Assembly (NCBI GenBank): GCA_004799435.1
Contig: SSMV01000012.1
Span: 1-35,217, forward strand
DNA: 35,217 nucleotides
Direction: 5' to 3'
DNA from: Bradyrhizobium sp.
Lineage (GTDB): Bacteria; Pseudomonadota; Alphaproteobacteria; Rhizobiales; Beijerinckiaceae
Shown here one piece after another: positions 10,392 to 29,242 of this stretch; the first letter of the stretch is position 1, and each line of letters opens with the position of its first letter. The position numbers were made by a program, and so were the translations under genes. Under the pieces are notes generated by a model, which had not been told where the DNA came from, searched no databases, and saw only the letters and a list, made by a program, of their open reading frames with translations.

Positions 10392-10453
10392 GACGCCACC
10401 TCCACGCCGTTAAATGCGACGTCCGCGTCAATGGCGGCGTCGCCTCGTTCGCG

Positions 10454-13086: not shown

Positions 13087-13110
13087 ATGCGGTTCTCTGG
13101 GGCGAACAGG

Positions 13111-13175
13111 GCGCGTCTCATTCCGCGCCCGATGGAGAGGGGGCGCTTCTCCCTCGGGGGTGGAACGAGACGCGC
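13111..13175 (-). repeat. Long hairpin in the ykoE-ykoD spacer
   Basis: GCGCGTCTCATTCC (13111-13124) pairs with GGAACGAGACGCGC (13162-13175) with a single mismatch; further GC-rich pairing is possible inside. It occupies most of the 98-bp gap between ykoE and ykoD and may adjust the ratio of substrate protein to ATPase, or be a dispersed repeat. It shares GAGACGCGCGT with the palindrome at 8214. Confidence 0.65.
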
Positions 13176-13184
13176 GTCCGTCCT

Positions 13185-13895: not shown

Positions 13896-14312
13896 TGTCA
13901 TTCTCCCCCTGGCTTAAGTGTAAGCGACAATCTCCGACGCGACCGCTTTCGCGACCCGCCGCCACCACTTCAAAATCTGACCCCCGTGCTCGGCCGCCCT
14001 TTGCGACGCCAGGCGACGCTTAGACAAGCGACGCTGAGATCGGCCCAATTTCGCAAGATCGCGATCTGTTTTAAGTCTGACGCGCGTGTCCTTTTGCTTG
14101 AAAGAGGTCGTTCGGCTCGCGGCGGCCCGTTTCGAAAGGCTCGGGCAGCCCCAACAAAATGAATTTTGCATTCAAAACGAACGGTCGCGCAAGGGTATAG
14201 ATTCGCCATACCCCTGTCATTTTAAGGCGCCCTGCTCAAAGAATCGGCGGCTCGGCCTAGACAACAGAACCTGTATGGATTTTTGCTTGTCGCGTTTTCG
14301 CCGCGTCGTTCT
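13896..14312. other. Intergenic leader of the ykoE operon
   Basis: About 410 bp with no gene I can support. It holds three GCGACGC repeats (14003, 14013, 14028), the palindromes at 14155-14177, and an inverted repeat GGGTAT-N9-ATACCC (14193-14213). On the minus strand ATGACA (14220-14215) and TATACC (14199-14194), 15 bp apart, are a weak promoter candidate lying just upstream of the palindromes. A long untranslated leader of up to 300 nt would follow. Confidence 0.4.
14155..14177. promoter_or_regulatory. Candidate GntR operator upstream of ykoE operon
   Basis: Two overlapping inverted repeats: CAAAAT-GA-ATTTTG (14155-14168) and TTTTG-CATT-CAAAA (14164-14177). Similar elements lie in the promoter regions of the aminotransferase gene and of the GntR gene itself. 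AT-rich TTTTGNATNCAAAA-like palindromes are common targets of FCD-type GntR repressors. Confidence 0.5.
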
Positions 14313-15506
14313 TCACTCCGCGGCGGCGCGCATCGGTCGCCTCTTTTGCGCAAAATAAGAAATGGCCTGGGACACGCCGCCGGCTTGCGCGGGGACGCCG
14401 CGCGACAACAGAGCCGACTCGATCGCGGCGAGTGCGCCAAGGATCGAAGCGTCGTTGAAGTCGCCCAGGTGGCCAATCCTGAACACACGATCGGCGAGAC
14501 GGCCCAGACCATTGCCGAGCGAGACGGAGGCCTGCCCCAGGATATCGGCGCGCAGGGCGTCGGCGGAATGCCCCTCAGGCATGCGAGCCGCCGTCAACGA
14601 ACTCGAGTAGTCGGCGGGTTCGTCGCACCAGATCTCCAGGCCCCAATGGCGAACGCAGCGTCGGGTCGCCTCGGCGGCGCGATCATGGCGCGCGAAGACC
14701 GCTGGCAGCCCTTCCTCGCGCAACAACTCAAGGGCCACTTTCAGGCCCTGAAGCAGGTTGGTGGCCGGCGTATAGGGAAAATAACCGTCCGCATTGGCGG
14801 CGAGCATATCCCCCCAGTCCCAGTAGGCGCGAGGCAGCCGCGCATCCCGAGACGCCGCCCGCGCCTTGTCCGAAATCGCGTTGAAAGCCAGGCCTGGCGG
14901 CAGCATCAGGCCTTTCTGCGAACCGCCGACGGTCACATCAACCTGCCATTCGTCGTGTCGGTAATCGATCGACGCAAGCGAGGAGATGGTGTCGACCATC
15001 AGCAGGGCGGGGTGGTGGGCGTCATCGAGGGCGCGGCGCACCCGAGCGATATTCGAAACCGCGCCAGTCGAGGTCTCGTTATGCACGACGGCGACCGCCT
15101 TGACACGGTGCGCGCGATCCTCGGCGAGATGGCTCTCTAACTCCGCAGCCACCGCGCCACGGCGCCAGTCCCCTGGTACGAACTCGACTTCCAATCCCAG
15201 GCGTCGGGCAATGTTTCGCCAAAGGGTGGCGAAATGGCCGGTCTCCGCCATCAGCACCTTGTCGCCGGGCGACAGGGTGTTGACGAGCGCCGCTTCCCAC
15301 GCCCCGGTGCCGGAAGACGGATAGATGACGACCGGAGATTGCGTCTTGAAGATCTCGGCGATGCCGCCGAGGACCTCCAGCGCCAGGTGGCGAAAGTCAG
15401 GACCGCGATGATCGATCGTGGGCTGCGCGATCGCCGCGAGAACCGAAAGCGGCACGTTTGTCGGGCCGGGAATCTGGAGGAAATGGCGCCCGGTGGAACG
15501 GCTCAT
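14313..15506 (-). CDS. Class V aminotransferase, serine/alanine-glyoxylate type (SgaA-like)
   Basis: A 397-residue PLP enzyme closely resembling methylotroph serine-glyoxylate aminotransferase. Features are FLQIPGPTNVPLSVLAAIAQ, YPSSGTGAWEAAL, VVHNETSTG, the PLP-lysine motif GGSQKGLMLPPG (Lys198), and VFRIGHLGDFND near the C-terminus. It should transfer an amino group to glyoxylate, giving glycine; related (S)-ureidoglycine-glyoxylate aminotransferases (PucG) belong to the same superfamily. In this setting, beside a ureidoglycolate lyase, it would recycle the glyoxylate released. It is divergent from the GntR gene, and a palindrome overlaps its candidate -10. It lies 418 bp from, and in the same direction as, the ykoE operon. 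Confidence 0.85.
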   Translation of the reverse strand: MSRSTGRHFLQIPGPTNVPLSVLAAIAQPTIDHRGPDFRHLALEVLGGIAEIFKTQSPVVIYPSSGTGAWEAALVNTLSPGDKVLMAETGHFATLWRNIARRLGLEVEFVPGDWRRGAVAAELESHLAEDRAHRVKAVAVVHNETSTGAVSNIARVRRALDDAHHPALLMVDTISSLASIDYRHDEWQVDVTVGGSQKGLMLPPGLAFNAISDKARAASRDARLPRAYWDWGDMLAANADGYFPYTPATNLLQGLKVALELLREEGLPAVFARHDRAAEATRRCVRHWGLEIWCDEPADYSSSLTAARMPEGHSADALRADILGQASVSLGNGLGRLADRVFRIGHLGDFNDASILGALAAIESALLSRGVPAQAGGVSQAISYFAQKRRPMRAAAE

Positions 15507-15588
15507 TGAAGGGACCTAGCGGACAAGAGGAGCGTCTGGACGAAGGGCGTAAGCGGACTCGGCGAGGCGTGGCGAGAAGTGTAGTTCT

Positions 15589-15601
15589 GCATTATGAATG
15601 C
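15589..15601. promoter_or_regulatory. Candidate GntR operator at the aminotransferase promoter
   Basis: GCATT-ATG-AATGC is a perfect 5-bp inverted repeat 83 bp upstream of the aminotransferase start. On the minus strand it contains CATAAT, a possible -10 hexamer, so a bound repressor would block the promoter. The half-site (TTCTGCATT with its flank) matches TTTTGCATT at 14164. Confidence 0.45.
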
Positions 15602-15704
15602 TATCCGCGCAACAGGTCTGTGGCGACCGCCCTTGTCTTCGGGCCGCACTGCTGGCAAAATGAGGGGGGAATCAAGCGAGAACTGCCGCAAAACCGCATG
15701 TTGT

Positions 15705-15756
15705 CGCCAATTGGCGCGCGGCGGCGCGCGATTTGAATACAAAATGTTTGATTTTG
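15705..15756. promoter_or_regulatory. Promoter/operator region of the GntR gene
   Basis: It contains the perfect palindrome CGCCAATTGGCG (15705-15716), TTTG-AATA-CAAA (15732-15743) and CAAAAT-N5-ATTTTG (15740-15756). The last two resemble the pair at 14155-14177. They sit 14-38 bp ahead of the GntR start, consistent with autoregulation. Confidence 0.45.
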
Positions 15757-15769
15757 GAGAGCCGGTTCG

Positions 15770-16489
15770 GTGAATACCTTTGCGCAACCCCAAAGCATTC
15801 TGCGCCGGTCGCTTCACCTCGAAGTTGTCCAAAGCCTTCGCGAGTTGATTCTCACCGGCGAATTCGAGCCGCGATCGCGGGTGAACGAAGTCGCCCTATG
15901 CGAGCGCTTTGGCATTTCCCGAACGCCGTTGCGCGAGGCGATCAAACTCCTGGCGGCCGAAGGACTCCTCGAACTGCGCCCCAATCGCGGCGCGCGCGTG
16001 GCCGCATTGTCCGAGGTGGAGGTTGCCGAAATCCTCCAGGTCATCGGCCCTCTGGAAGCGGCGGGCGCGGAACTTGCCTGCGGGCGGATCACCGAAGGCG
16101 AACTCGCCGCGATCGAAACTGCGCATCTCGACATGGTCGACGCCTGGAAAGCGAAAGACTACGACCGGTATTTCGCTCGCAACCGACAGATCCACGATGC
16201 GATCATGGCCGCCTCCGGCAATGGCGCGCTGCAATCGGTCTACCGGAGTCTCTCCGGTCGGGTCCAGCGGGCGCGTTTTTCCGCTCATAAGACCGACGAG
16301 CAATGGGCGCGGGCGATCGACGATCATAATCTCATGATCATCTTGCTGCGCCGCAGGGATGCGACCGCGCTCGCGCAATTGATGCGCGACCATATCAAGA
16401 GCAAGCGGATCATTATTTCAGCCGCCTATAGCGCCCCGGACGCCGCGAAGCGCGGCTCAGGGCGCCTTCGCGGCGCCGCTCCGTCGTGA
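15770..16489 (+). CDS. GntR-family transcriptional regulator (FCD type)
   Basis: A 239-residue regulator. The winged helix-turn-helix is at about residues 15-75 (VNEVALCERFGISRTPLREA, then GLLELRPNRGARVAAL). The C-terminal FCD ligand-binding domain includes FARNRQIHDAIMAASGN and a late RDHI segment that would hold metal-binding His residues. The start is the GTG at 15770 with GGAGA nine bases upstream. It is divergent from the aminotransferase gene and directly upstream of the amidase gene (19 bp), so it most likely senses an intermediate of the ring-degradation pathway and controls all three promoters with similar palindromes. Confidence 0.88.
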   Translation: MNTFAQPQSILRRSLHLEVVQSLRELILTGEFEPRSRVNEVALCERFGISRTPLREAIKLLAAEGLLELRPNRGARVAALSEVEVAEILQVIGPLEAAGAELACGRITEGELAAIETAHLDMVDAWKAKDYDRYFARNRQIHDAIMAASGNGALQSVYRSLSGRVQRARFSAHKTDEQWARAIDDHNLMIILLRRRDATALAQLMRDHIKSKRIIISAAYSAPDAAKRGSGRLRGAAPS

Positions 16490-16508
16490 CGGCGGAAAGG
16501 CGCCAGCT

Positions 16509-17867
16509 ATAAGCGAGCTTCACACCCTCGACGCCCATGACCTCGTCGCGCTGTTTCGCGCGCGTCGCGCCACGCCCGTCGACGTCTTCGAGGCGGCGTC
16601 AGCCCGTATCGCCGCGCTAGAGCCCCGCATTAACGCGATGACCTACATTGCCGCGACGGGTCGGGTCGAAGCCGAGGCCAGCGCGCGGCGCTGGCGGGAG
16701 GGCGCTGCGCGCGGGCCGCTCGACGGCGTTCCCGTCACGATCAAGGACAATCTTGCAGTCGCGGGGATGCCGGCGACTTTTGGCAGTCCTGCCTATCGTT
16801 CGTTTATTCCCGTCGAGGATGAACTTCCGGTGGCGCGGATTCGGCAAGCCGGCGCGGTCGTGCTCGGCAAGACGAACCTGCCTGAATTCGCGCTCGAAGG
16901 TTATACCGACAACGCGCTGTTCGGCGCGACGGGCAATCCGCTCGACCCCGCCCTGACAACAGGCGGATCGACGGGCGGCGGCGCGGCTTCAGTCGCGGCG
17001 CTCTATGCGCCGGTCGCGCTTGGCACCGACGGGGGCGGGTCGTTGCGCCGACCGGCCGCGCATTGCGGGCTCTTCGCGTTGAAGACGTCGATCGGTCGTA
17101 TCCCCAGACGGGGCGGGCTGCCGCAACTCCTGCTCGATTTCGAGGTGGCCGGCGCGCTCACCCGCACCCTTCGCGACACCAAAACCGTCTACGAAACGAT
17201 GGCGGCGACGGTGAGCGCATCGGCGCCAATCGCGCCGCCGGAGCCGCCGCTGCCGCGACCGCCGCTGCGCATCCTCGCGGTCGAGTTCTTTGGCGACGCG
17301 CCGCTCGATCCTGAGATCGGCCGGTCGTTCCAGGCATTCATCGACCGACTCGCGACGCACGGTCACGACGTGCGAGCCGGTTCGCTTCCGCTGGACGTCG
17401 AACCCTTGGCCGAGGTCTGGCCGGAGATCGGCCGCGCGCATCTGGCGAAGCTCTTCGCGGAACGTCCCGAAATTGGCGCCGCCGCCTCGCCCAAATACCG
17501 GGCGATGGCGGAAGAGGGCGCGCGCCTTCCAGCGACGCGCATGCTCGCCATTCTTGAACGCGTCGCCGTTCTGCGCGAGCAAGCGGCCCGCATGTATCAA
17601 GAGATCGATATCGTCGTCACGCCGTCGATTGCGGCTTTGGCCTGGCCGAAGACCCAAAGCCACCCCACTCAGATCAACGATCAGCCGGTCGGCCCGCGCG
17701 GACATGCCGTCTACACCGGCTGGGTCAACGCAGCCGGGCTGCCCGCCCTCGCGTGGCCAACCAATCCCGCGTCGGACGGCCGAACGATCGGGGTGCAGCT
17801 CGTCGCGGCATCTGGCGCCGACCGACTGCTGCTCGATTTCGAAGGGCGCTTGACGGCGAAGGATTGA
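16509..17867 (+). CDS. Amidase-signature family amidase, apparent ATA start
   Basis: The amidase-signature Ser-Ser-Lys triad is complete: Lys79 in VTIKDN, Ser154 in TTGGSTGGG and Ser178 in GTDGGGSLRRPA, with the 24-residue Ser-Ser spacing usual in the family. The first in-frame ATG is at 16638, but that would delete a typical N-terminus, ELHTLDAHDLVALFRAR, encoded from 16515. The only start-like codon at the proper place is ATA at 16509, eight bases after GGAAAGG. This gives 452 residues, a normal length. The substrate is probably a linear amide or ureide; in barbiturate and cyanurate pathways the ring opener is followed by an amidase of this family. It follows the GntR gene by 19 bp and precedes the AllA gene by 101 bp. 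Confidence 0.85.
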   Translation: MSELHTLDAHDLVALFRARRATPVDVFEAASARIAALEPRINAMTYIAATGRVEAEASARRWREGAARGPLDGVPVTIKDNLAVAGMPATFGSPAYRSFIPVEDELPVARIRQAGAVVLGKTNLPEFALEGYTDNALFGATGNPLDPALTTGGSTGGGAASVAALYAPVALGTDGGGSLRRPAAHCGLFALKTSIGRIPRRGGLPQLLLDFEVAGALTRTLRDTKTVYETMAATVSASAPIAPPEPPLPRPPLRILAVEFFGDAPLDPEIGRSFQAFIDRLATHGHDVRAGSLPLDVEPLAEVWPEIGRAHLAKLFAERPEIGAAASPKYRAMAEEGARLPATRMLAILERVAVLREQAARMYQEIDIVVTPSIAALAWPKTQSHPTQINDQPVGPRGHAVYTGWVNAAGLPALAWPTNPASDGRTIGVQLVAASGADRLLLDFEGRLTAKD

Positions 17868-17968
17868 GCAACGTGCAACGCCGGAGGCGTTCGCCATCAA
17901 TTCATCTCGGGCGCGGCGACAGGATCGTCAGCGCTTTCCGACCCATGATTTAAGGAGCCGCGCGCATC

Positions 17969-18445
17969 ATGAGGACTTTGACGTTACAGCCGATCACGGA
18001 AGCGGCGTTCGCGCCATTCGGCCATCTGTTGCGCGTGCCGGCCGTCGGGCTGCCGCGGCTCGACCTGATCGAGGACATGCAGAACCTGCGGCCGTCGGCG
18101 CGTCTGCGCCTGAGCCTGTCTTCGATCGCCGCGACCCAATTGCCCGTCACGATAGAGCAGATGGAGCGCCACGTTGCCTCTTCCCAGGCCTTCCTGCCGC
18201 TGGCGTGCGAAGGTTATCTCGTCGTCGTGGCGCCCCACGGACTTGAGGGAAAACCCGACCTGGAAGGCTTGCGCGCCTTCAGCGTTCCCGGAGACTGTTG
18301 CATCAACTATCGGGCGGACACCTGGCATCGTCCATTCACGGCCCTGCACGGACCAGCGCGCTTCGCCGTACTGACTTTCGTTGCGGGCGCTCCAGAAGAC
18401 GATCAGTTCGTGCCTCTGCCCGAGCCTGTTCGGATCGTGGCGTAG
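17969..18445 (+). CDS. allA: Ureidoglycolate lyase family protein (AllA type)
   Basis: A 158-residue protein of the AllA family, which splits ureidoglycolate into glyoxylate and urea at the end of allantoin degradation. Matching landmarks are LQPITEAAFAPFGHLL at the start, LPVTIEQMERHVASSQAFLP in the middle, and GLRAFSVPGDCCINYRADTW followed by HRP, the region that forms the active-site barrel. Length is normal. AAGGAG precedes the ATG by 11 bases. It is the last gene of the GntR-amidase-allA unit. No allantoinase, allantoicase or urate oxidase gene is in the window, so the ureido acid may come from a different ring. A short hairpin (17877-17891) lies in the spacer to the amidase gene. Confidence 0.85.
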   Translation: MRTLTLQPITEAAFAPFGHLLRVPAVGLPRLDLIEDMQNLRPSARLRLSLSSIAATQLPVTIEQMERHVASSQAFLPLACEGYLVVVAPHGLEGKPDLEGLRAFSVPGDCCINYRADTWHRPFTALHGPARFAVLTFVAGAPEDDQFVPLPEPVRIVA

Positions 18446-18499
18446 GATCGCTTGCGAAGGCTGGTTGCGCGGCGGCTCCGGGCTCGGTCGGCCCGCTCG

Positions 18500-19702
18500 C
18501 TAGTCGACGATCGCCTGATAGGCCAGCGCGCGAAGTTCGAGCTCGGGCGAGTCGAAGCTCAACATCGATTGCGTCATGAAGAGGCCGACGACCTGCTCAA
18601 CGGGATCGACCCAGTAGTGTGTCTTCGCGGCGCCCGACCAGCCAAATTCGCCGACCGATCCCGGCGCGCCCGTCTGCGCAACATCGAGCGCGACGCGGGA
18701 GCCGAGTCCAAAACCATAGCCGGGGATGAGCATGCCGCCGATCTCGAGCGGCAGGAGCTCGGGCGGCAGCACGTTTGCGTGCATGAATTCGACCGTCTTT
18801 CGGCCGAGGATCCGGGCGCCGTCGAGCTGGCCGCCGTTGCCGAGCATCTGGGCAAATCGAAAACAGTCGTTCGTCGTGCTAAACAGACCGTGGCCGCCGC
18901 GTTGGAATGTCGCCGGCATGTCGACGGGATAGGTCGCGGAGACGTCGCGCCGTTCGTTGACGCCCTCCTCCCATTGCTGGCGGCAGCTCACGACCGCATC
19001 AGGGGTTACAAGCAGGTCCGGCCGTCCATAGATCGCAGCGAGCCGGTCGCGCTTGTTTTCCGGCGCCTCGAAGGCGGTGTCGACCATCATGAGCGGCTCG
19101 AAAATGCGCTCTTTGAGGAAGTCCGCCAGACTACGCCGCGAGATCACCTCGATCAGGCGCGCCGCGACGTCTATGCCGACGCTGTAGAACCAGCGAGACC
19201 CCGGATGGCAAATGAGCGGAAATCGCGCCAAATCCGCGATCGCGTCGGCGAGCGACACCTTGGGGTCCCAAAGCTTCGCCCTCGCGTATTGGCGGCAGAC
19301 CGGGGAATCATCGACGAAATTATAGGCAAGGCCGCTCGTGTGCGCCAAAACATCCCGCACGGTCATTGGCTGCTTGGGGTTTGACAGCGGCCCGTCGGGT
19401 TCGCGGACTTTCGCGCGAGCGAAAGCCGGCAGGTAATTTGCGATCGGATCGGTGAGATGAAACTTGCCTTCCTCGAACAGCGTCATCAAGGCCGTGCAGA
19501 TAATCGGCTTTGTCATCGAATAGAGACGGCAGATTGTGTCTTCCGTCATCGGCAAACCGGCCTCAGTGTCGCGGAAGCCGTATTGTCCCCGATGGACGAT
19601 TTCGCCGCGCCGGGCGACGACGGTGCATATCCCGGCATAGACGCCGCGATCCACATAGGCCTGCATCGCCGGGTCGATCCGCGCCAGGCGCTCGGCGCTC
19701 AT
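18500..19702 (-). CDS. Beta-lactamase-fold serine hydrolase (class C-related, COG1680)
   Basis: A 400-residue serine hydrolase with SMTK (Ser62, Lys65), a Tyr at 173 in RWFYSVGID, HTSGL near 121, and WSGA in place of the KTG box. There is no signal peptide, so it is probably cytoplasmic, which argues for an esterase, lactonase or amide hydrolase rather than a true beta-lactamase. It lies 91 bp downstream of a GntR regulator gene in the same direction and convergent with allA. It could therefore belong to the sugar locus to the right, for example hydrolysing an ester or lactone of the substrate. The substrate is not inferable from sequence. Confidence 0.8.
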   Translation of the reverse strand: MSAERLARIDPAMQAYVDRGVYAGICTVVARRGEIVHRGQYGFRDTEAGLPMTEDTICRLYSMTKPIICTALMTLFEEGKFHLTDPIANYLPAFARAKVREPDGPLSNPKQPMTVRDVLAHTSGLAYNFVDDSPVCRQYARAKLWDPKVSLADAIADLARFPLICHPGSRWFYSVGIDVAARLIEVISRRSLADFLKERIFEPLMMVDTAFEAPENKRDRLAAIYGRPDLLVTPDAVVSCRQQWEEGVNERRDVSATYPVDMPATFQRGGHGLFSTTNDCFRFAQMLGNGGQLDGARILGRKTVEFMHANVLPPELLPLEIGGMLIPGYGFGLGSRVALDVAQTGAPGSVGEFGWSGAAKTHYWVDPVEQVVGLFMTQSMLSFDSPELELRALAYQAIVD

Positions 19703-19793
19703 TCCGCTGCGATCATCGCCTCGCCGCTTTCAAACTCTCCGGATGCTTGCCGCCGTTGCAATCGCGTGTCTCAGCGTTCGGCCAGATCGTCGC

Positions 19794-20561
19794 TTAACGA
19801 TCGTCGAGGCCGCGCGAAAATTCGCGCAGAACCGCGTTGAGGTGGCTCCGCATTTTGCGGCGGGCGGTCGCGCCGTCGCGTGCGGCGATCGCGTCGTAGA
19901 TCGCCCGGTGCTCTTTCATCGTTTTGGCCGGACGGTCGGGACCGATGAGTAATTCTTCGAACTTGCCGAAGAGCGGCTTCGATCGGTAGGCCCATAAGGC
20001 GCCGACAATCACCGCGAAGGCGGCGTTGCCGCTAGCGCGAGCAATCTCGACGTGGAATTGCATGTCGCCGTCACGGTACTTCGGCGAGGCGGCGGATTCG
20101 GCGCTGGCCTGCACGGTCATGGCCTGGCGCATACGCGCCAGGTTCGCGTCGCCGCGGGCGGAAGCGGCGAGTTCCGCGGTCCACGGCTCGACGTGAAGCC
20201 GCGCCTGCATGAGCTGGATGGGACCGATATCCGCGTCGTCGATGTCGGCGACATGACCGCTCTCGGTCGGGCGCGGCATGGCTTCGAGGATCTGCGCGCC
20301 GCGCCCGACCCGTATCGAGACCTTGCCCGCTTCCTCGAGCGCGATCAGCGCCTCGCGCACCGTGGTGCGGCTCACGCCAAGCTGCTGGGCGAGGTCGCGC
20401 TCGGCGGGCAACAGCGTGCCGATCGGGAAGACGCCCTGCTCAATTTTTTCGCCAAGCAACACGACAATTTGACGATAGAGCCGAACCGGCTCAACCTGCG
20501 GCAGCGCCGGCGCTGCGGCGCGTTCGGCTGACGCGGACCCTGATCCGTTCCGCTTTTCCAT
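19794..20561 (-). CDS. GntR-family transcriptional regulator (FadR/FCD type)
   Basis: A 255-residue regulator. The winged helix-turn-helix lies at about residues 28-95 (LLPAERDLAQQLGVSRTTVR, EEAGKVSIRVGRG), followed by an FCD effector domain with MQFHVEIARASGNAAFAVIV and a C-terminal EHRAIYDAIAARDGATARRK. An Ala/Pro-rich tail of about 25 residues precedes the DNA-binding domain. It is divergent from the sugar-catabolic genes starting at 20728 and shares their control region, which holds good inverted repeats. It probably represses those genes and its own unit until a sugar-acid effector binds. Confidence 0.88.
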   Translation of the reverse strand: MEKRNGSGSASAERAAAPALPQVEPVRLYRQIVVLLGEKIEQGVFPIGTLLPAERDLAQQLGVSRTTVREALIALEEAGKVSIRVGRGAQILEAMPRPTESGHVADIDDADIGPIQLMQARLHVEPWTAELAASARGDANLARMRQAMTVQASAESAASPKYRDGDMQFHVEIARASGNAAFAVIVGALWAYRSKPLFGKFEELLIGPDRPAKTMKEHRAIYDAIAARDGATARRKMRSHLNAVLREFSRGLDDR

Positions 20562-20628
20562 GTCGATTCAAACCTTTGCGGGCGCAGACCGTGGGAATCG
20601 CGTCTCGTCTTTGGCCACAATAGCGCCG

Positions 20629-20685
20629 TTGACAGCTCTTGCAAACCGGCCTAGTGGTCTTATCAACCAGTGGCTGGACCACTGG
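20629..20685 (+). promoter_or_regulatory. Promoter and operator for the sugar-acid operon
   Basis: TTGACA (20629-20634) is followed after 17 bp by TAGTGG. Overlapping and just after it are TGGT-N7-ACCA (20655-20669) and the perfect inverted repeat CCAGTGG-N5-CCACTGG (20667-20685). TGGT/ACCA half-sites are typical of FadR-like GntR repressors, so the divergent GntR protein is the likely ligand. Confidence 0.55.
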
Positions 20686-20727
20686 ACCTCTCTGTCGCCC
20701 CTCGGCGTTGGACATCGGGAGAACGTT

Positions 20728-21606
20728 ATGGAGGCTGCCGACCGCAAGCTTCGCATTCGCCTCCTGACAATTGCGGTCGAGGAGGACCTGTTCAAGGTGG
20801 TGCGGCGGGGCGCGGCGGACGCGGCGAACGCATTGGGCGTCGAGGCCGAACTGGACGGGACGCCCGATGTCTCCGCGCAGGCGGTCATCGCGCTGGCCCG
20901 CAAGGCGCTGGACGAAGGCGTCGACGGCCTTGCGCTCAACATATCCGAGTCGCGGGTATTCGCGCCCGTCATTGCCGAAGCGAAGGCTAGAGGCGTTCCT
21001 TGCGTCGCGTTCAACATCGACGCCGACAAGGGCGCAAGCGGCAATCTGAGCCGCATCGTCCAGGATTTCGCGCAGGCCGGGCGCGTGCTCGGCGATCGCG
21101 TCGTCTCCCGCATTCCTCGCGGCGCGAAGGTGCTGGTGACTGTGCATGACGATGGCGTCTCTGCGCTCGAAGAGCGTTTCGCAGCCGTTTGCGAGCCGCT
21201 GAAAGCGCATGGCGCGGATATCGCGCGTCTGCGCGTCGGACTGAACCCGGATCGGGGCGCATCGGTGATTCTGGAAGCTCTCGCCGCGCGTCCGGCGTCG
21301 GCGATTGTCGGCACCGGCCAGGCCGACACGGAGGCTGCGGGAATCGCCGCCAGGACGCTCGCCCCGAAGGCGCCTTATGTCGCGGGCTTCGACCTCTCGC
21401 CTGGTATCACGACCCTCATCGCCGACGGTCACATCGACGCGACGATCGATCAGCAGCCCTATCTGCAAGGCTTCTATCCCGTTGTGCAGTTGACGCTGTT
21501 CCTGCGCTTCGGGCTCGCGCCCTCTTCGATCGACGCCGGCGCCGCGCTGATCGATCGCGCCAATCTGGAGTCGATCCAACAATTGAGTCGTCAACATATT
21601 CGCTGA
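20728..21606 (+). CDS. Binding-protein-like (Peripla_BP_4) protein lacking a signal peptide
   Basis: A 292-residue protein with the fold of ribose-type binding proteins: RKLRIRLLTIAVEEDLFKVV, then ALDEGVDGLALNISESRVFA, VPCVAFNIDAD, and a C-terminal GHIDATIDQQPYLQGFYPVV that is a hallmark of sugar ABC binding proteins. The ATG at 20728 has GGGAG seven bases upstream and starts almost directly at the first beta-strand, with no export signal. The open frame upstream (from 20560) carries no signal either and overlaps the operator. It therefore seems to be cytoplasmic, perhaps a sugar sensor or carrier. A separate exported binding protein is encoded at 24567. First gene of the rightward sugar operon. 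Confidence 0.75.
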   Translation: MEAADRKLRIRLLTIAVEEDLFKVVRRGAADAANALGVEAELDGTPDVSAQAVIALARKALDEGVDGLALNISESRVFAPVIAEAKARGVPCVAFNIDADKGASGNLSRIVQDFAQAGRVLGDRVVSRIPRGAKVLVTVHDDGVSALEERFAAVCEPLKAHGADIARLRVGLNPDRGASVILEALAARPASAIVGTGQADTEAAGIAARTLAPKAPYVAGFDLSPGITTLIADGHIDATIDQQPYLQGFYPVVQLTLFLRFGLAPSSIDAGAALIDRANLESIQQLSRQHIR

Positions 21607-21630
21607 AACATTTCGTAACGAGTCAAACTT

Positions 21631-22746
21631 ATGAAGATCAAGTCGATCGAACCCTTCATTGTCCACGCGCCGCTTAACGTGGATTCGATCTCCGATTCGA
21701 CGAACACGATCACCCATTGGGGCATCGTCGGCGCGAGGATCGTGACCGAGGACGGCCTCGAAGGTTACGGCTACACCGGCACGCATGCGCATCTGGCCAC
21801 CGACCGGCTCGTTGCGCGCTGCATTTCCGACAGCTACGCCCCGCTGCTGATTGGCGAGGACGCGCAGGACGGCGACCGGCTCTGGCGCAAGCTTCTTTCC
21901 TATCCGCCGGTGCGCTGGGTGGGCCGCGCCGGCATCACCACCATCGCGGCGGGCGCGATTGACATCGCGCTGTGGGATTTGCGCGCCAAAGCCGCGAAGG
22001 TCCCGCTGTGGAAACTGCTCGGCGGCGCGACGGTCGATCGGTTGGAAGCTTACAATACCGACATCGGTTGGCTCTCGACGCCGCTGGCGAGGATGATCGA
22101 TTCCTGCAAGGCCGCCGTAGAGGTCGATGGCTTCCGGCGCTTAAAGCTCAAAGTCGGGCATAGCGATCCAACGATCGACATCGAGCGCGTCGCGGCGGTC
22201 CGCAAGGCTGTCGGGCCCGGCGTAACGATTGCAATCGATGGCAACGGCAAATGGGATCTTCCCACCTGCATGCGCTTCTGCGCGCGGGCGGAGCCGCTGG
22301 ATCTGTTCTGGTTCGAAGAACCGATGTGGTTCGACGACATCCGTGGACACGCCGAACTGGCGAACTCAACCTCCATTCCGATTGCGCTCGGCGAGCAGCT
22401 CTACAGCTTGCATGCCTTCAACGCCTTCATGGACGCCGGCGCCGTGCACTATGTTCAACCCGACGTGACGCGCCTGGCCGGAATCACCGAATATATCCAG
22501 GTCGCCCACGCTGCGCATGGTCGCGGGCTGCCTGTGACCGCTCATGTCGGCGACATGGGGCAAGTGCATGTGCATTTGTCGTTCTGGCATCCGGCGACGA
22601 CGATGCTCGAATACATCCCCTGGATCAAAGATTGTTTCGAGGAGCCGATCCGGGTTCGGGACGGCGCTTATCAGCGACCCGAAGCGCCGGGCGCTGGCAC
22701 AACGCTCACCAGACAAGCCATCGCAGCGCATTCCAGGCCCCTATAG
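21631..22746 (+). CDS. Enolase-superfamily sugar acid dehydratase (mandelate racemase subgroup)
   Basis: A 371-residue enzyme with all mandelate-racemase subgroup catalytic residues: Lys172 and Lys174 in LKLKVG, metal ligands Asp203 (AIDGNG), Glu229 (FEEPMW) and Glu255 (ALGEQLY), and the Asp278-His305 dyad ([18 protein letters not shown]). This set is typical of acid-sugar dehydratases, which remove water from an aldonate to give a 2-keto-3-deoxy acid. It lies 24 bp after the binding-protein-like gene. With the SDR and lactonase genes that follow it makes up a non-phosphorylated oxidation route (sugar to lactone to aldonate to keto-deoxy acid). The particular sugar is not identified. Confidence 0.88.
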
Positions 22747-22780: not shown

Positions 22781-23581
22781 ATGATGCGACCGCCGCTCGA
22801 ACGTGAATTCGCTGGAAAGACCGCCTTCGTGTTGGGCGGCAGCTCAGGCATCGGCCGGGCCTCGGCAGAGCTATTCGCCGAACGCGGCGCGAGTGTCGTG
22901 GTCGTCGGCCACACGGATGACGCCTATGACGTCGCCCGCAAGATATCGGACAATGGCGGCAAGGCGCTCGGCCTCGTCGGCGACGCCAGCAAAGGCGACT
23001 TCGTCCGCGAAGCGATCGAACGCACGATCGCCGCATTCGAATCGCTCGACATTATGTTGTGTTCGGCGGCGATTCATCCGCTCGGCGACGTGGTCGAAAC
23101 CGACGAGGCGACCTGGGACCGCACCTTCGAGGTCAACGTCAAGTCGATGTATCTGTGCTGCCACTATGGCGTGCCGCATATGATCAAGCGGGGCGGCGGT
23201 TCGATTATCACGCTGTCCTCGGTGCAGGCGACGTCCAATACGCCCAATGTCTGCGCCTATGCCGCGACCAAGGGCGCGATCCTCACCTTCACCCACACGC
23301 TCGCCGTCGACCTGGCGAAATATAACATCCGCGCCAACACAATCTGTCCCGGCTCGATTATCACGCCGATGCAGGAACATTTCGCCAAGCTCAACGGCGC
23401 CGGCCGCAGCGTCGAAGAGATGTATGCGATCTTCGCTCGACCTGTGCCGCTGCAACGCCTCGGCCACGCCTGGGAGATCGCCGAACTCGCGGCGTTTCTC
23501 GCCAGCCCGCGCTCGGGGTTCTGCACCGGATCTCAATTTACGGCGGACGGCGGCCTGCTCGCCGGCCTGCGCATTTTCTGA
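22781..23581 (+). CDS. Short-chain dehydrogenase/reductase, probable sugar dehydrogenase
   Basis: A 266-residue classical SDR. The nucleotide motif GGSSGIG is at residues 19-25, Asn119 and the triad Ser147, Tyr160, Lys164 are all present, and the C-terminus FTADGGLLAG is typical. It would oxidise a sugar to the lactone, using NAD or NADP. The start is given as the first of two adjacent ATGs (22781, 22784). It lies between the dehydratase and lactonase genes, 34 and 25 bp from them, which supports the pathway role. Confidence 0.87.
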   Translation: MMRPPLEREFAGKTAFVLGGSSGIGRASAELFAERGASVVVVGHTDDAYDVARKISDNGGKALGLVGDASKGDFVREAIERTIAAFESLDIMLCSAAIHPLGDVVETDEATWDRTFEVNVKSMYLCCHYGVPHMIKRGGGSIITLSSVQATSNTPNVCAYAATKGAILTFTHTLAVDLAKYNIRANTICPGSIITPMQEHFAKLNGAGRSVEEMYAIFARPVPLQRLGHAWEIAELAAFLASPRSGFCTGSQFTADGGLLAGLRIF

Positions 23582-23606: not shown

Positions 23607-24440
23607 ATGCATCGAATCGATTGCCATATGCACCATTGGACGCTCGCGTTGGAGCGCTACTACGGGCTGTGGATGACGCCGGCGCTGAAGAGCCTTTACG
23701 GCGATTTCGGCCCGCGCGACGCGGCGCCGGTCATGACGCAAAGCGGAATCGACGGCGTCGTGCTCGTCTCGGCCGCCAATTCGATTCACGAAACCGGCTA
23801 CCTGATGGGCGTCGCCGACTCGCAGGACTATGTGCGCGGCGTCGTCGCCTGGATCGACATGCTGGCCCCAGGCGCCGCCGACGACATCCGCTATTGGTCT
23901 CGTTTTCGTAAGCTGAAAGGTTTCAGGCCCTATCTGCAGGATCTTCCGGAAGACGATTGGGTGCTGAAGCCGCAGCTCGCGCCGGCGCTCCGCGCGATGG
24001 TCGAGTCCGGATTGTCTTTCGATATCCTGATCAAGCCGCGCCATGTCGCGCACGCCGTCGAATTCGTGAGGCGCAACCCGGATCTCATGGTGGTCGTCGA
24101 CCACATGGCGAAACCCGAGATTCGCAATTCCGGTTTCGAACCCTGGCGGCGCGAGATGGAGGCGTTTCGCGCGCTCAAACACGTTCATTGCAAAATATCC
24201 GGGATCCTCACGGAGGACGGCGACGCCTGGTCGCTCGAGCGCATCCGCCCCTACGTGGACGCGGTCATCGACATTTTCGGTCCCGACCGCCTGATGTTTG
24301 GCAGCGACTGGCCGGTCGTCAATCTGGTCGCCGATTATGGCCGCTGGGTCGACGCCGTCGAAACGTTGCTGGGCGATCTCACGCGCGCCGATCAGCAGAA
24401 AATCTGGGCCGACAATGGCGAGCGCTTTTATCGGCTCTGA
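23607..24440 (+). CDS. Amidohydrolase-fold sugar lactonase (COG3618 type)
   Basis: A 277-residue TIM-barrel hydrolase of the COG3618 family, which includes L-fuconolactonase and L-rhamnonolactonase. It begins HRIDCHMHHW (metal-type His motif near residues 7-10), and shows KLKGFRPYLQDLPEDDW, VVVDHMAKPEI, HCKISGILTE and the late Asp in FGSDWPVVN. Its job here is probably to open the lactone made by the SDR, giving the aldonate for the dehydratase. The true start is ATG 23607; the frame is open upstream within the SDR gene but that part is not protein-like. Confidence 0.85.
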   Translation: MHRIDCHMHHWTLALERYYGLWMTPALKSLYGDFGPRDAAPVMTQSGIDGVVLVSAANSIHETGYLMGVADSQDYVRGVVAWIDMLAPGAADDIRYWSRFRKLKGFRPYLQDLPEDDWVLKPQLAPALRAMVESGLSFDILIKPRHVAHAVEFVRRNPDLMVVVDHMAKPEIRNSGFEPWRREMEAFRALKHVHCKISGILTEDGDAWSLERIRPYVDAVIDIFGPDRLMFGSDWPVVNLVADYGRWVDAVETLLGDLTRADQQKIWADNGERFYRL

Positions 24441-24566: not shown

Positions 24567-25601
24567 ATGAACAGCTACCCGAAGAGCGCCGTTGCGGCCG
24601 CGACTCTGTTTGCGCTGATGGCGCTTAGTTCCGGCGCGGCCCTGGCGTCGAGCAATAAGATCGCCCTCATGCCGGGCGGACCGCATCCCTATTTCGCGCC
24701 CTGGGAGCAAGCGGCGGCGGACGCAAAGAAGGATTTCGGCATTGGGGACGTCCAGTACAAAGTCCCAGCCGAGTGGAAACTCGATCTGCAAACCGAATTG
24801 ATGGAGAGTCTCGCGACCCAGGGCTATGTCGGCTTCGGCTTTTTCCCCGGCGATGCAGTGGGCATCAATTCGACGCTTCAGGAACTGTCCGCCAACGGCG
24901 GCGTCTCCGCGGCGCTTGCCGGATGCGCGCAGGATCCGACCAAGGCCGCTTTCTGCCTCGGCACTGACGTCTATAAGGCGGCCTATGTCGGCGCGCAGGC
25001 GCTCATCAAGGCGATGGGCGGCAAGGGCAGGATCGTTCATCTCGCGGGACTCGTCATCGACCCCAACACGAAGCTTCGCATGGCGGCGATCGAGAAGGCG
25101 GTCGGCGAGACGAATGGCGCGGTGACGCTCGTTCAGCACATCACCGATCTCGACGCGCAGGAGGCCGCCGACCAAAAGATCAACGCGTTGCTCGGCGCGC
25201 AGAAGGACCAGATCGACGGCCTGATCGCGACCGCCTATATTCCCTCGACAGTGGCCGCCAAAGCGCTGCGCAATCTCGGCGACAAGCGCATCAAGCTGAT
25301 CGGCATGGACGACGACAAAATCGTGCTTGACGGCATTCGCGACGGGTTTGTCGCCGGCACGATGGCGCAGAACGCCTATGGTCAGGGCTATATCGGCGCC
25401 TATGCGCTCGATCTGCTCGCCAGCGGCTGCAAGGTCAAGGACGACGCGCCCTTCCAGAAGACGCCGCAAACAGCCAAGTTCATCGACTCTGGCACGGTGC
25501 TGATCCAGAAGGCGAATGTCGATACTTATGCGGACGACCTCAAGAAGGTTACCGCAGAGATCCAGGGCGGGTTCAAGGCCAAGTTCCTCGCCTGCAAGTA
25601 A
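24567..25601 (+). CDS. Sugar ABC transporter substrate-binding protein (ribose type)
   Basis: A 344-residue periplasmic binding protein with a clear Sec signal (hydrophobic residues about 8-26, cleavage likely after Ala27 in GAALA-SS). The mature part shows KIALMPGGPHPYFAPWEQAA and FVAGTMAQNAYGQGYIGAYA, as in the Peripla_BP_4 sugar family. AAGGGAG stands seven bases ahead of the ATG at 24567; a further in-frame upstream start would spoil the signal. It is followed by two permease genes and the ATPase gene, forming a full importer. The probable ligand is the sugar or polyol degraded by the flanking enzymes. Confidence 0.9.
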   Translation: MNSYPKSAVAAATLFALMALSSGAALASSNKIALMPGGPHPYFAPWEQAAADAKKDFGIGDVQYKVPAEWKLDLQTELMESLATQGYVGFGFFPGDAVGINSTLQELSANGGVSAALAGCAQDPTKAAFCLGTDVYKAAYVGAQALIKAMGGKGRIVHLAGLVIDPNTKLRMAAIEKAVGETNGAVTLVQHITDLDAQEAADQKINALLGAQKDQIDGLIATAYIPSTVAAKALRNLGDKRIKLIGMDDDKIVLDGIRDGFVAGTMAQNAYGQGYIGAYALDLLASGCKVKDDAPFQKTPQTAKFIDSGTVLIQKANVDTYADDLKKVTAEIQGGFKAKFLACK

Positions 25602-25657: not shown

Positions 25658-26659
25658 ATGACAGCCGACAAGCCCGCAACCGCCGGACGTCTCTCAATCC
25701 TTTCGCTCGCGAGCTCGAATCTTTTCGGGCTCGCGGCGATCGTCGCCGTGTTCTGGGCGATTTTCGTCAGCCTGACGCCTAACATTGCGTCGTCTTTCAG
25801 CCTGTTCGCGATTTCGCGCTCGCTTGGCATCGACATCGTCGTCGGATTTTCGACGATGGTCGTGCTGGCGACCGGCGGCATGAATCTTGCAATCGGCTCG
25901 ATCGGCGTTTGCGCCGTCATGTTCGCCGGCTACCTGATGCAGGAGCTCGGCGTTCCGTCGCCGCTCGCATTGCTTGCCGCATTGATGCTTGGGGCCGCAT
26001 CCGGCTGGGCGAATGGCGTTACCATTGTCACGACCGGCGCCAACGCCTTCGTCGTGACGCTGGCGAGCGCAAGCCTGTTCTTCGGCGCCATGCTGATAAC
26101 GACCCACGGCACGCCTTTCGAGGGCCTGCCGCCAGAACTGGCCGACTTCGGCCGAATGCGTTGGGGTTTCGTCTCGCCAATGCTGGCGCTCGCCCTGGCG
26201 ATCGGGGTCGCGCTGGCGATACTCTTTCACTTCACGGCGCTCGGACGCGAAATCCTGTCGGTCGGCGCGAACACCCGCGCGGCGCGCATGTCTGGCGTTC
26301 GCGTCGGCCGCGCGATTGTTGTTGCGCACACGCTGTCGGGGCTCCTCGCCGCGGTCGCCGGGCTCATGACCATGGCGAGGCTCGGCGCGGCGATTCCGGC
26401 GATCGGACGCGACTGGCTTTTGCCCTCCTTCCTCGCGCCGGTGCTCGGCGGCACATTGCTATCGGGCGGCGCGGTGTCGATCGGCGGGACGATTCTCGGC
26501 GCCTTGTTGATCGCAACCCTGCGTGCGGGAATCCTCACTTTGCAGGTTGCAAACTTCTGGTTGCAACTTTTTCTCGGACTCGTGCTGCTCTGTTCGGTCG
26601 CGCTTGACCGCTATCGCGGCGGTTACCTCGAGCGAAAGAGCGCGAGGGTTCGTGCATGA
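25658..26659 (+). CDS. Sugar ABC transporter permease (RbsC type)
   Basis: A 333-residue inner-membrane permease of the BPD_transp_2 family. Landmarks are TMVVLATGGMNLAIGSIGVC near residues 67-90, GWANGVTIVTTGANAFVVTLAS, and FTALGREILSVGANTRAARM followed by SGV, the cytoplasmic coupling loop. The stop overlaps the next permease gene by 4 bp (ATGA at 26656). It differs from the second permease, so the channel is a heterodimer. Confidence 0.9.
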   Translation: MTADKPATAGRLSILSLASSNLFGLAAIVAVFWAIFVSLTPNIASSFSLFAISRSLGIDIVVGFSTMVVLATGGMNLAIGSIGVCAVMFAGYLMQELGVPSPLALLAALMLGAASGWANGVTIVTTGANAFVVTLASASLFFGAMLITTHGTPFEGLPPELADFGRMRWGFVSPMLALALAIGVALAILFHFTALGREILSVGANTRAARMSGVRVGRAIVVAHTLSGLLAAVAGLMTMARLGAAIPAIGRDWLLPSFLAPVLGGTLLSGGAVSIGGTILGALLIATLRAGILTLQVANFWLQLFLGLVLLCSVALDRYRGGYLERKSARVRA

Positions 26660-27603
26660 ACACGCGCCTTTTGGAGAAGGAATGGCCGGCGCTCGCGGTC
26701 GCGATCGCTTTGGGCTTCGGCTTCCTCGCGGCGACTTCGCCCGCCTTCCTGACCGAGTTCAACATCTATGTCCTGCTGCGTTCGTTCTGCATCTCGCTGC
26801 TCGTCGCCTTCTCTCAAATGACGACGCTGGCGGTCGGGCAGCTCAACGTCTCGATCGGCGCGCTCGGCGGATTGGTGGCGATCGTCGCCGGCGGTCTGAT
26901 GGAGAAACTCGGCGTCCCGATCGGCGTCGCCTTGGCGGCCGGGCTCGCGCTCGGCGCGCTCTGTGGCTTCGTTAACGGCGTGCTGGTGACGCGCACCGGG
27001 ATTGACGGATTCATCGTTACGCTCGCGACCGCCTCGGTGTTCGATGGAATCAATCTGGGGATCACCAAGTCGATCCCCTTTTACAAAATGCCCGCGGCGC
27101 TGGTCGCCTTCGGGACGGCGCGCTTCCATGCGCTGCCCTATCTTCTGATCCCGCCTGTGCTGGCGGCGATCGCGCTGGCGATCTTTCTCGCCCGAACGTC
27201 GCTTGGCCGATATCTGCTTGCGGTCGGCGGCAACCCACAGGCGGCCGAACTTTCCGGCGTGCCGCGGGCTCGCATCATCGTGCTGGCGCATAGTCTGTCG
27301 GGCTTTCTTGCCGCCGGTGCGGCGCTTCTCGCCCTCGCGCAATTGGGCTCGGCGCAGCCGACCATTGGCTCCGACTGGCTGATCCTCTCTTTTGCCGCGC
27401 CGATCATCGGCGGCGCGGCGCTGGGCGGCGGCTATGTCTCGGTCCTCGCAACCGCGCTGGCGGTTGTGTTGTTGACGCTGATCCAAAACGGTCTGGTGCT
27501 CGAACAGGTCGATCCCTTCTGGGTGGAATTCCTGCTTGGCGGACTAATCCTCGCCGCGGTCGGATTCGACCGACTGCGCGCCGCCCGCGCCGGAGGCGGG
27601 TGA
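26656..27603 (+). CDS. Sugar ABC transporter permease (RbsC type), second
   Basis: A 315-residue permease paralogous to its neighbour. It shows FSQMTTLAVGQLNVSIGALG, CGFVNGVLVTRTGIDGFIVT and RTSLGRYLLAVGGNPQAAEL followed by SGV. It begins in an ATGA overlap with the first permease and ends overlapping the ATPase start (TGATG at 27601-27605), so the three are tightly coupled in translation. Confidence 0.9.
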   Translation: MNTRLLEKEWPALAVAIALGFGFLAATSPAFLTEFNIYVLLRSFCISLLVAFSQMTTLAVGQLNVSIGALGGLVAIVAGGLMEKLGVPIGVALAAGLALGALCGFVNGVLVTRTGIDGFIVTLATASVFDGINLGITKSIPFYKMPAALVAFGTARFHALPYLLIPPVLAAIALAIFLARTSLGRYLLAVGGNPQAAELSGVPRARIIVLAHSLSGFLAAGAALLALAQLGSAQPTIGSDWLILSFAAPIIGGAALGGGYVSVLATALAVVLLTLIQNGLVLEQVDPFWVEFLLGGLILAAVGFDRLRAARAGGG

Positions 27604-29099
27604 TGCGCCTTGCGGTCGAGAATGTCGGCAAGTCGTTTCCAGGCGTCGTCGCCCTCGACGGCGCGTCGCTTCGTCTGGAGCCGGGCGAAATCCACGCTTT
27701 GGTCGGCGAGAACGGCGCCGGCAAGTCGACCCTGATCAAGATACTCACCGGGATTTACCGTCCCGATCGCGGGCGGCTCACAATCGACGACAAGGAGGCG
27801 CGCTTCGCCTCCGCGCGCGACGCCATCGCTTCGGGCATCGGCGCGGTCCATCAGGAGCGCAACCTGGTGCCCCGTTTCACGGTGGGAGAGAATATCGCGC
27901 TCGAACAGTTGCCGATGCGCTTCGGCTTTGTCGATTTCGACGCGGTCCATAAGCGTGCGCGAAAGTTCCTCGACGCAATCGACTCCTCCATCGACACGCG
28001 CACGGAAGTGCGAAGGCTCTCGGTTGCGCAGATGCAGATCGTCGAGATCGCCAAGGCGCTTTCCCTCGATAGCGGCGTGCTGCTGCTCGACGAGCCGACG
28101 GCCTCGATCACCGGTCACGAGGCGGACGCCCTGTTTCTGATCCTCCGCCGCCTGAAGGCCCAGGGCAAGGCGATCGCTTTCGTTGGGCATCGATTGGAGG
28201 AAGTGCTCTCCATCTGCGATCGCATAACGGTGCTGCGCGACGGGAAAGTCATGCTCTCGGGCGAACCTGTCGCGAAGGTCGATCGCGCGCGCGTTGTCCG
28301 CGAGATGGTTGGGCGCGAGGAGCGAATTGCTGAGTTTGAGCGCGCCATCCCCCAGTCAGACACGCCAGCCATGGAAGCGCGCGAACTGGCGACGGCGCGC
28401 GGGCACGTCGGCATAGATTTCAAACTGATGAAGGGCGAAATCCTTGGCCTCTATGGTTTGGTTGGCGCTGGGCGCACCGAGCTCGCCCGCGCCCTGGTTG
28501 GCGACGAGCGGATCGTTGGCGGGCAACTGCTGATGGACGGCACGCCTGTCGCCTCGCGCAATGTCGCCGATGCGGTCCATCGGCAAAAAATCGGCTATGT
28601 TTCCGAGGATCGCAAGGGTGAAGGCCTGATCCTCGCCCATTCCGTCCGCGCCAATCTGGCCATCACGATTTGGCGGCGTATTGCGGATCGCCTCGGTCTG
28701 TTGCGGCGCAGCTCCGAGTTGCGCGTCGTCGCCCCGATCGCGGCCAGGCTCGATGTGCGCACAGGGTCGCTGGAGCGCGAAGTCATCAAGCTCTCCGGCG
28801 GCAACCAGCAAAAGGTGTCGATCGGGAAATGGCTCGCCGCCGAGGTGAAGGTGCTGCTGGTCGACGAGCCCACGGTTGGGGTGGACGTCAACGCCAAAGC
28901 GGCGATCCATGAAGCGATCGCCGGCGTCGCGCGCGAGGGTGTCGCTGTGTTGCTGATTTCGAGCGACTTGCCGGAAATGGTCGCGCTCGCCGATCGCGTG
29001 CTGGTCATGCGCGATTTCGCATTGATCGGCGAAGTCGAGAACGACCGCAATCTGGAGCGGGTCTCGCGCCTGATCATGGAATTGATCCAGAGCCGCTAA
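27603..29099 (+). CDS. Sugar ABC transporter double ATPase (RbsA type)
   Basis: A 498-residue protein with two ATPase domains. Domain 1 has GENGAGKS (35-42), signature-region LSVAQMQIVEIA and LLLDEPTASIT. Domain 2 has the usual degenerate Walker A GLVGAGRTELA, an intact signature LSGGNQQKVSIGKW and VDEPTVGVDV. This pattern is normal for RbsA/MglA/XylG proteins. The ATG at 27603 lies six bases after GGAGG; the GTG at 27600 is also in frame but too close to that site. It ends the importer operon. Confidence 0.92.
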   Translation: MRLAVENVGKSFPGVVALDGASLRLEPGEIHALVGENGAGKSTLIKILTGIYRPDRGRLTIDDKEARFASARDAIASGIGAVHQERNLVPRFTVGENIALEQLPMRFGFVDFDAVHKRARKFLDAIDSSIDTRTEVRRLSVAQMQIVEIAKALSLDSGVLLLDEPTASITGHEADALFLILRRLKAQGKAIAFVGHRLEEVLSICDRITVLRDGKVMLSGEPVAKVDRARVVREMVGREERIAEFERAIPQSDTPAMEARELATARGHVGIDFKLMKGEILGLYGLVGAGRTELARALVGDERIVGGQLLMDGTPVASRNVADAVHRQKIGYVSEDRKGEGLILAHSVRANLAITIWRRIADRLGLLRRSSELRVVAPIAARLDVRTGSLEREVIKLSGGNQQKVSIGKWLAAEVKVLLVDEPTVGVDVNAKAAIHEAIAGVAREGVAVLLISSDLPEMVALADRVLVMRDFALIGEVENDRNLERVSRLIMELIQSR

Positions 29100-29215: not shown

Positions 29216-29242
29216 TAATAGGCAATGCGAGCCGGGGGGGAC

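Follow-up and report, generated by a model that had tools for sequence, protein, structure and literature searches.

Binding proteins are annotated by family and are taken to be periplasmic. Passages of a survey of 49 strains report that single-domain cytosolic proteins with other functions also match the families of binding proteins, for which the structure paper on AmiC-AmiR is cited, and that about 1% of the proteins retrieved automatically had a predicted cytosolic location (PMC9602780). Excerpts of a second paper describe NasS as a relative of NrtA that has no signal sequence, retains the ligand residues and separates from NasT when nitrate or nitrite is present, and state that nasS is possibly misannotated in a number of genomes, so subtle is its difference from the exported relatives (PMC3795266). 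Here we describe a leaderless binding protein of the sugar type, termed cSBP, which is encoded in a 35,217-nucleotide stretch of DNA from Bradyrhizobium sp. that was analysed as a whole (the window). Cytosolic binding proteins are already known; among the open PubMed Central papers listed for leaderless or cytosolic binding proteins, judged by titles and abstract openings, none was found on the cSBP lineage.

The cSBP protein and its start codon

The open reading frame of cSBP (20728-21606, forward strand) has correct coordinates and frame and encodes a complete single-domain protein of 292 amino acids. It matches the Pfam family PF13407 (Peripla_BP_4) with 123.1 bits against a cut-off of 35.1 (E 1.9e-35); Pfam finds no LacI domain in it and places Peripla_BP_1 under its cut-off, and the score for the NCBIfam rhizopine binding protein model NF052284 is 88.3 bits, below the cut-off of 420. 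The closest solved relatives by sequence are the sugar-binding proteins of ABC importers, 4ru1 (E 4.3e-20), 3rot and 2qvc/2h3h. An AlphaFold2 model, built from a 40-row alignment of the window protein and 39 of the best 80 loci in the scan of the species collection, has a mean pLDDT of 95.3. The model matches 2h3h with an E of 2.9e-19 in Foldseek and aligns with 3c6q over 283 residues in VIA-align (Z 33.9, rmsd 2.4). Residues 7-278 of the model correspond to chain residues 1-271 of the E. coli ribose-binding protein (RBP, 1drj; Z 28.2, rmsd 2.9), leaving six residues ahead of the position of the mature N-terminus of the exported RBP. Because the fold begins at residue 1 of mature RBP, there is no space for a signal peptide. 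The first-pass annotation had described a ribose-binding-type fold that starts directly at its first strand, and both the PF13407 match and the model aligned to 1drj bear this out. The N-terminal signal peptide or lipobox that marks exported CUT2-type proteins is found neither in cSBP nor in its nearest homologue, L009.

The cSBP frame is open upstream back to ATG 20560, and a start there would give a protein of 348 amino acids. cSBP could then be exported after all, either with a start at 20560 (or a later TTG) and the run LATIAPLTALA as a weak signal, or by a leader-independent route. This run is the one mildly hydrophobic run in 20560-20727, and its mean Kyte-Doolittle value of 1.83 is about that of the weakest exported paralogues of the same genome (1.34, 1.80 and 1.81 in L105, L106 and L113). 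However, the upstream stretch is non-coding in composition. With a codon-usage score trained on the other genes of the operon, 20560-20727 has -0.12 bits per codon, as compared with 0.38 to 0.58 in nine windows of cSBP. Its GC3 is 0.607, while the minimum over 256 coding windows of 56 codons from the operon genes, cSBP included, is 0.679. No purine-rich Shine-Dalgarno sequence was seen by eye at ATG 20560, TTG 20611 or TTG 20629. At ATG 20728, a Shine-Dalgarno-like GGGAG and a spacer precede the start codon (20717-20727, forward strand; CATCGGGAGAACGTT-ATG). ATG 20560 also overlaps the start codon of a divergent gene for a GntR regulator, and the intergenic region between the two genes (20562-20727), although open in the cSBP frame, contains operator-like repeats at 20648-20688. 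Furthermore, the nearest homologue is leaderless and has no room for a signal. Export by any of these routes is thus highly improbable. The two other upstream frames, both interrupted by stops, contained no convincing signal (best 11-mers of 1.59 and 1.06). A missed true start or an upstream frameshift, which the first-pass annotation had named as the alternative, was checked and rejected, given the codon score, the GC3, the ribosome site and the operator motif. cSBP is a real, intact and leaderless binding protein of the sugar type, and its N-terminus indicates that it is very probably cytosolic, that is, never exported.

The operon and its control region

The cSBP gene is the first of an operon on the forward strand. 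It is followed by genes for a sugar-acid dehydratase of the mandelate racemase/enolase type (21631-22746; PF13378, PF02746), a short-chain dehydrogenase (SDR; 22781-23581; PF13561), a sugar lactonase-like amidohydrolase (23607-24440, start ATG 23607; PF04909), the exported binding protein of an ABC importer (24567-25601, start ATG 24567; PF13407 with E 5.5e-36 when scanned from GTG 24540), two ABC permeases (25658-26659 and 26656-27603; PF02653 in both), a double ABC ATPase (27600-29099; two stretches of PF00005) and a LacI-type regulator (29225-30274; PF00356, PF13377). From cSBP onward, the gaps between the genes are 24, 34, 25, 126, 56, -4, -4 and 125 nt. The divergent GntR/FCD transcriptional regulator lies at 19794-20561 on the reverse strand (PF00392, PF07729). 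The nearest NCBIfam model of the dehydratase is L-talarate/galactarate dehydratase (261.6 bits, cut-off 500), and that of the amidohydrolase is L-fucono-1,5-lactonase (206.4 bits, cut-off 400). Neither protein reaches the cut-off of any listed NCBIfam model, nor does the SDR for the best 25 of 229 such models. Together, a dehydrogenase, a lactonase-like protein and a dehydratase point to the oxidative breakdown of a sugar or a sugar acid.

The exported binding protein carries a signal (MNSYPKSAVAAATLFALMALSSGAALA, best 11-mer 2.25) and adjoins the permeases, so that cSBP is not the sole binding protein of the neighbouring importer. In a single comparison, the two binding proteins are 25% identical over 224 columns (E 6e-05), as distant paralogues. 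cSBP as a duplicate of the exported protein is ruled out by this low identity over part of the length. The first-pass annotation was therefore right that the importer has a second, exported binding protein and that cSBP is not simply its duplicate.

Operator-like inverted repeats occupy 20648-20688 in front of cSBP, with 12-nt arms that are 83% complementary, 7-nt perfect arms and the core TGGCTGGACCACTGGAC at 20671-20687. When the core was searched as TGGYTGGACCACTGGAC with at most one mismatch, it was found in two of 11 genomes of the genus, once in each, namely the window genome and genome G002; it was absent from the other nine, and the reversed pattern, used as a control, had no match in the 11 genomes. 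These two genomes are also the two members of the genus in which the dehydratase ortholog was found. The match in G002 sits on the contig that bears the orthologous GntR and dehydratase genes, at 644-660 of the retrieved stretch L137. By our reading, it lies ahead of a cyclase-like gene whose true start is the ATG at about 707; the mechanical open reading frame of this gene also runs back through the core. Such a position is expected of a regulatory site. The repeats at 20648-20688 are likely the operator to which GntR would bind. The promoter scan found no sigma-70-like promoter in 19600-21700. In G002, the same GntR and dehydratase genes (L137, 1-9190) are followed by another importer, and the operator-like core stands before the cyclase-like gene at about 700.

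Other parts of the window also hold catabolic and transport genes. After the LacI-type regulator, a sugar kinase-like gene (by eye) and a Zn-dependent dehydrogenase occupy 31893-34672, possibly in the same sugar cluster. The genes at 9294-19702 resemble a cluster for ring-amide catabolism, which we read as one pathway: an AtzD/TrzD-type ring-opening amidohydrolase, a class V aminotransferase, an amidase, a ureidoglycolate lyase family protein and a beta-lactamase-family hydrolase, together with the parts of an ECF-type transporter (a CbiQ-like protein, a double ATPase and a membrane protein at 13185-13901 that was recognised by eye). An ABC importer of the branched-chain/urea-amide type lies at 420-5470; its Peripla_BP_5 binding protein has a twin-arginine-like leader, and its permease- and ATPase-like frames, like this leader, were recognised by eye.

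Leaders and lineage of the homologues

A scan of 84,980 species genomes with six short peptides returned at least 597 stretches with at least 537 relatives, from which the best 80 loci were used. Protein matches with E <= 1e-10 that covered more than 200 residues of the query were pooled, and 111 places gave 102 distinct relatives, window copies excluded. An 11-mer with a mean hydropathy of at least 1.7 precedes the fold in 95 of these relatives, and one of at least 2.0 in 76. This test alone is lenient, because the rejected extension of cSBP would pass it (1.83 against the threshold of 1.7), and the N-termini were therefore also read by eye. With hydropathy and eye combined, 98 of the 102 relatives have leader-like N-termini (Sec, lipobox or twin-arginine), three are unreadable and one, L009, has none. 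The 98 comprise 94 of the 95 hydropathy-positive relatives, three with lipobox-like ends (L025, L030, L074) and one with a twin-arginine-like leader (L044). The unreadable ones are L063 and L076, in which the upstream frames look interrupted, and L029, which follows another binding-protein domain and is truncated at the end of its contig. The first-pass annotation held that signal peptides on all homologues would mean a missed start; the check was run, and the nearest homologue is without one. In the genome of the window, 32 places match PF13407. Reading of 30 of them by eye found 23 exported proteins, four LacI-like proteins with helix-turn-helix-like N-termini, two places cut by contig ends, and cSBP itself.

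Two of the unreadable relatives, L063 (near 9404) and L076 (near 9718), are of the exported type, and their upstream frames look interrupted by sequencing errors or frameshifts; automatic start calls at such places could create false leaderless proteins. The third, L029 (1-1119), is from Chloroflexota and seemingly has two binding-protein domains in the one frame that the contig end cuts.

Among the matches listed, the nearest homologue of cSBP is L009 (9986-10846), with 42% identity over 273 columns and a PF13407 score of 130.9 bits. It comes from the Clostridiales Family XIII MAG Md513_bin44 (genome G480). Its ATG lies 10 nt past the stop of an upstream SDR gene, with GGAGGGG in between. Because the open frame ahead of the ATG spans just 12 residues, no signal is possible. 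All the other relatives among the 102 have at most 34.4% identity to cSBP.

In a tree of 103 rows, cSBP and L009 form a pair (support 100/99) whose stem measures 1.21 changes per column. The end branches of the pair are long (1.05 and 1.36), and the tree program cautions about long rows and about the amino-acid make-up of the window protein. The identities agree with the tree, at 42% for the pair against 34.4% or less for the others. Since the tree unites the two leaderless proteins, export was probably lost once, long ago, and a single loss of the leader probably accounts for both. The two proteins come from different phyla, so the loss is ancient unless the gene has moved.

cSBP and L009 are the two leaderless members found. 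Further members were sought on both sides of the pair. For the window genome, the draws covered 100 relatives (E <= 1e-30), 385 genomes of its class (E <= 1e-32) and 398 genomes of its phylum (E <= 1e-45), and in each the sole match was the window's own genome. For G480, the sole match in 391 genomes of its class (E <= 1e-45) and in 186 relatives (E <= 1e-32) was likewise G480 itself. In 398 genomes of its phylum (E <= 1e-40), 13 genomes besides G480 had matches, all with signal-like leaders; they comprise 11 N-termini at 28.5-33.3% identity plus L165 and L166. These draws overlapped and used strict E limits, and some first-look candidates were scored per genome (six in the big draws), so that weaker leaderless members could be missed. 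Viral contigs gave 81 pattern matches and no relative of cSBP. Among plasmids, 92 records matched with E <= 1e-20 and none reached 60% identity, the best being 34.4% identical and carrying a leader. Across the searched genomes, members of this lineage are rare. Such rarity, with one genome in 100, 385 and 398 that is each time the window's own, is what would be seen if cSBP were a decaying gene that is disappearing after the loss of its leader. However, the 292-codon frame is intact with native codon usage, the full fold is modelled confidently, and cSBP has 42% identity and invariant residues in common with a leaderless homologue in another phylum. We consider decay a very remote prospect.

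Ligand pocket, proposed role and known systems

The contact residues of RBP are given as N13, F15, F16, D89, R90, R141, N190, D215 and Q235 in a portion of one paper (PMC3676853), and F164 is taken from a table in another (PMC2630998). By the model alignment to RBP, N13, F15, F16, D89, R90 and R141 correspond to E19, L21, F22, N96, I97 and R150 of cSBP, and N190, D215, Q235 and F164 to G197, D222, Q242 and L172. We also take N64 to be a contact residue, and it corresponds to N71. Five of the 11 contact positions (F16, N64, R141, D215 and Q235) are identical in cSBP, L009 and RBP, and D89 is replaced by Asn in both leaderless proteins; the other five (13, 15, 90, 164 and 190) are unlike RBP in cSBP, L009 or both. 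All 40 rows of the alignment used for the model have N96, R150, D222, Q242 and a DQQPY run. Nine residues (V17, E18, E19, K59, E63, N71, F114, D141 and Q198) are common to the leaderless pair and occur in at most 3% of the exported rows. Of the nine, four are no more than one residue away from a contact position (p 0.045), five no more than two (p 0.053), and two coincide with one (p 0.13), a weak hint that the pair may have a particular ligand. Both leaderless proteins have lost 11 of the 51 positions that are conserved in the exported rows. One of these is glycine 111 (query position), present in 99% of the exported rows and next to the position of the RBP hinge residue Ser103. With this hinge-adjacent glycine lost in both, opening and closing may differ.

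Because cSBP is leaderless, is no duplicate and keeps several pocket residues, it is naturally read as a cytoplasmic sensor or carrier. This part of the first-pass annotation stands, while its further suggestion of a partnership with GntR is weakened, as described below. We propose, with a probability of roughly 50%, that cSBP is a cytosolic ligand-binding sensor on the principle of AmiC and NasS, by which a transporter-type binding protein would be reused as a cytosolic sensor. cSBP would be made as the first gene product of an oxidative sugar or sugar-acid operon with an ABC importer of its own, downstream of a promoter region in which the likely GntR operator lies. It would bind an intracellular compound of the pathway, such as the sugar taken up by the importer or the corresponding lactone or acid, and would close around the ligand, thereby altering its contact with a partner protein. 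The intact gene, the missing leader, the fold, several retained pocket residues, the leaderless homologue in another phylum and the operon context were all established by computation; the cytosolic location, the binding of a ligand, the ligand class and the control by GntR are inferred. If the sensor reading is true, this leaderless sugar-type lineage would offer a readout of a sugar pathway from inside the cell, easily purified and tested, and would be a case of a transport protein turned cytosolic receptor.

The locus of L009 bears on the choice of partner. Its gene order is an SDR, the leaderless protein, a xylose-isomerase-like TIM barrel and a Zn-dehydrogenase, followed on the other strand by a regulator and a kinase-like gene. 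The regulator is a response regulator with an AraC-type DNA-binding domain, and the kinase-like gene beside it was recognised by eye. The locus also has two binding proteins with leaders (by eye), an ATPase and a permease. Its SDR scores over the cut-off of the GolD/DthD dehydrogenases and is 33% identical to the SDR of the window; therefore the two probably do not catalyse the same step. In both loci, the leaderless protein stands with sugar oxidoreductases, and a separate importer has its own exported binding protein.

If GntR were the partner, ligand-bound cSBP would change the binding of GntR to its operator. The two genes are adjacent and divergent, the operator-like repeats lie in the region that they share, and in Bacillus AraR a GntR-type DNA-binding domain is joined to a LacI-type sugar domain. 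On the other hand, GntR has no match in the 20.8-kb L009 locus at E <= 1e-5, and the divergent GntR carries an FCD ligand domain (PF07729) of its own. Orthologues of the dehydratase with 61-74% identity were found in 10 further genomes of 120. In one of these, G002 of the same genus, GntR (61%) and the dehydratase (73%) are divergently oriented, and the roughly 180 nt that separate them contain no gene for a binding protein. In the G002 genome (85% complete), cSBP has no match at E <= 1e-30; farther down the same contig is a 27% relative of cSBP with a twin-arginine-like leader. Nor does cSBP have a match in the sequences of up to 19 kb retrieved from the nine remaining genomes. The GntR-dehydratase pair thus exists without cSBP in a sister species. 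GntR as the partner appears improbable; a contact between the two that is peculiar to the window genome is conceivable.

An ANTAR partner of cSBP was also considered and rejected. The window genome has two matches to the ANTAR family, on contigs C161 and C172 and not on the cSBP contig (C24), and G480 has none at E <= 0.001. Since neither an ANTAR gene nor GntR is a conserved neighbour, either the output would be unlike that of AmiC-AmiR and NasS-NasT or the gene of the partner lies elsewhere.

The main rival to the sensor reading is that cSBP acts as a cytosolic carrier or buffer and does no signalling. It would hold a labile intermediate, such as a sugar lactone or a keto-sugar, and either limit its loss and side reactions or feed it to the enzymes. 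The pocket is partly kept, and both loci embed the leaderless protein among sugar oxidoreductases with no common regulator; as their SDRs are just 33% alike, the shared theme is the catabolic context rather than one regulator. However, a single-ligand protein must be abundant to buffer a flux, and a carrier that feeds enzymes is not known among the binding proteins of this family. The carrier role is rather unlikely. For the sensor reading, we tentatively extend the proposal to the lineage as a whole: a sugar-type lineage could have lost its export signal once, before its alphaproteobacterial and clostridial carriers diverged or exchanged it, and could now act in sugar operons as an independent receptor for sugars inside the cell, its output based neither on ANTAR nor on GntR.

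Compared with the LacI-family regulators, which have a related sugar-binding fold and are cytosolic as cSBP is predicted to be, cSBP has no DNA-binding domain or N-terminal helix-turn-helix. The exported Peripla_BP_4 proteins (RbsB; 4ru1, 2h3h, 3rot) have the fold and several of the ligand-contact residues found in cSBP, which in contrast lacks the signal peptide and glycine 111, and whose neighbouring importer is served by a separate exported protein. AmiC, the amide sensor of the Pseudomonas aeruginosa AmiC-AmiR system, is a cytosolic single-domain protein with the binding-protein fold, encoded in a catabolic operon; unlike AmiC, with which it is compared here by description, cSBP is of the PF13407 sugar type and has no ANTAR neighbour. 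The nitrate sensor NasS is, like cSBP, a leaderless homologue of an exported ABC binding protein, and keeps its ligand residues according to a section of its description (PMC3795266). Likewise compared by description, NasS differs from cSBP in its ligand class and in being paired with the ANTAR protein NasT, a kind of neighbour that cSBP does not have. On contig C161 of the window genome (L170, 1004-2784), the end of a gene that we read as a NasT-like ANTAR gene overlaps the start of a leaderless NasS-like gene, whose product is probably a second cytosolic binding protein in this genome. With such a gene pair, the organism probably already uses the principle of AmiC and NasS.
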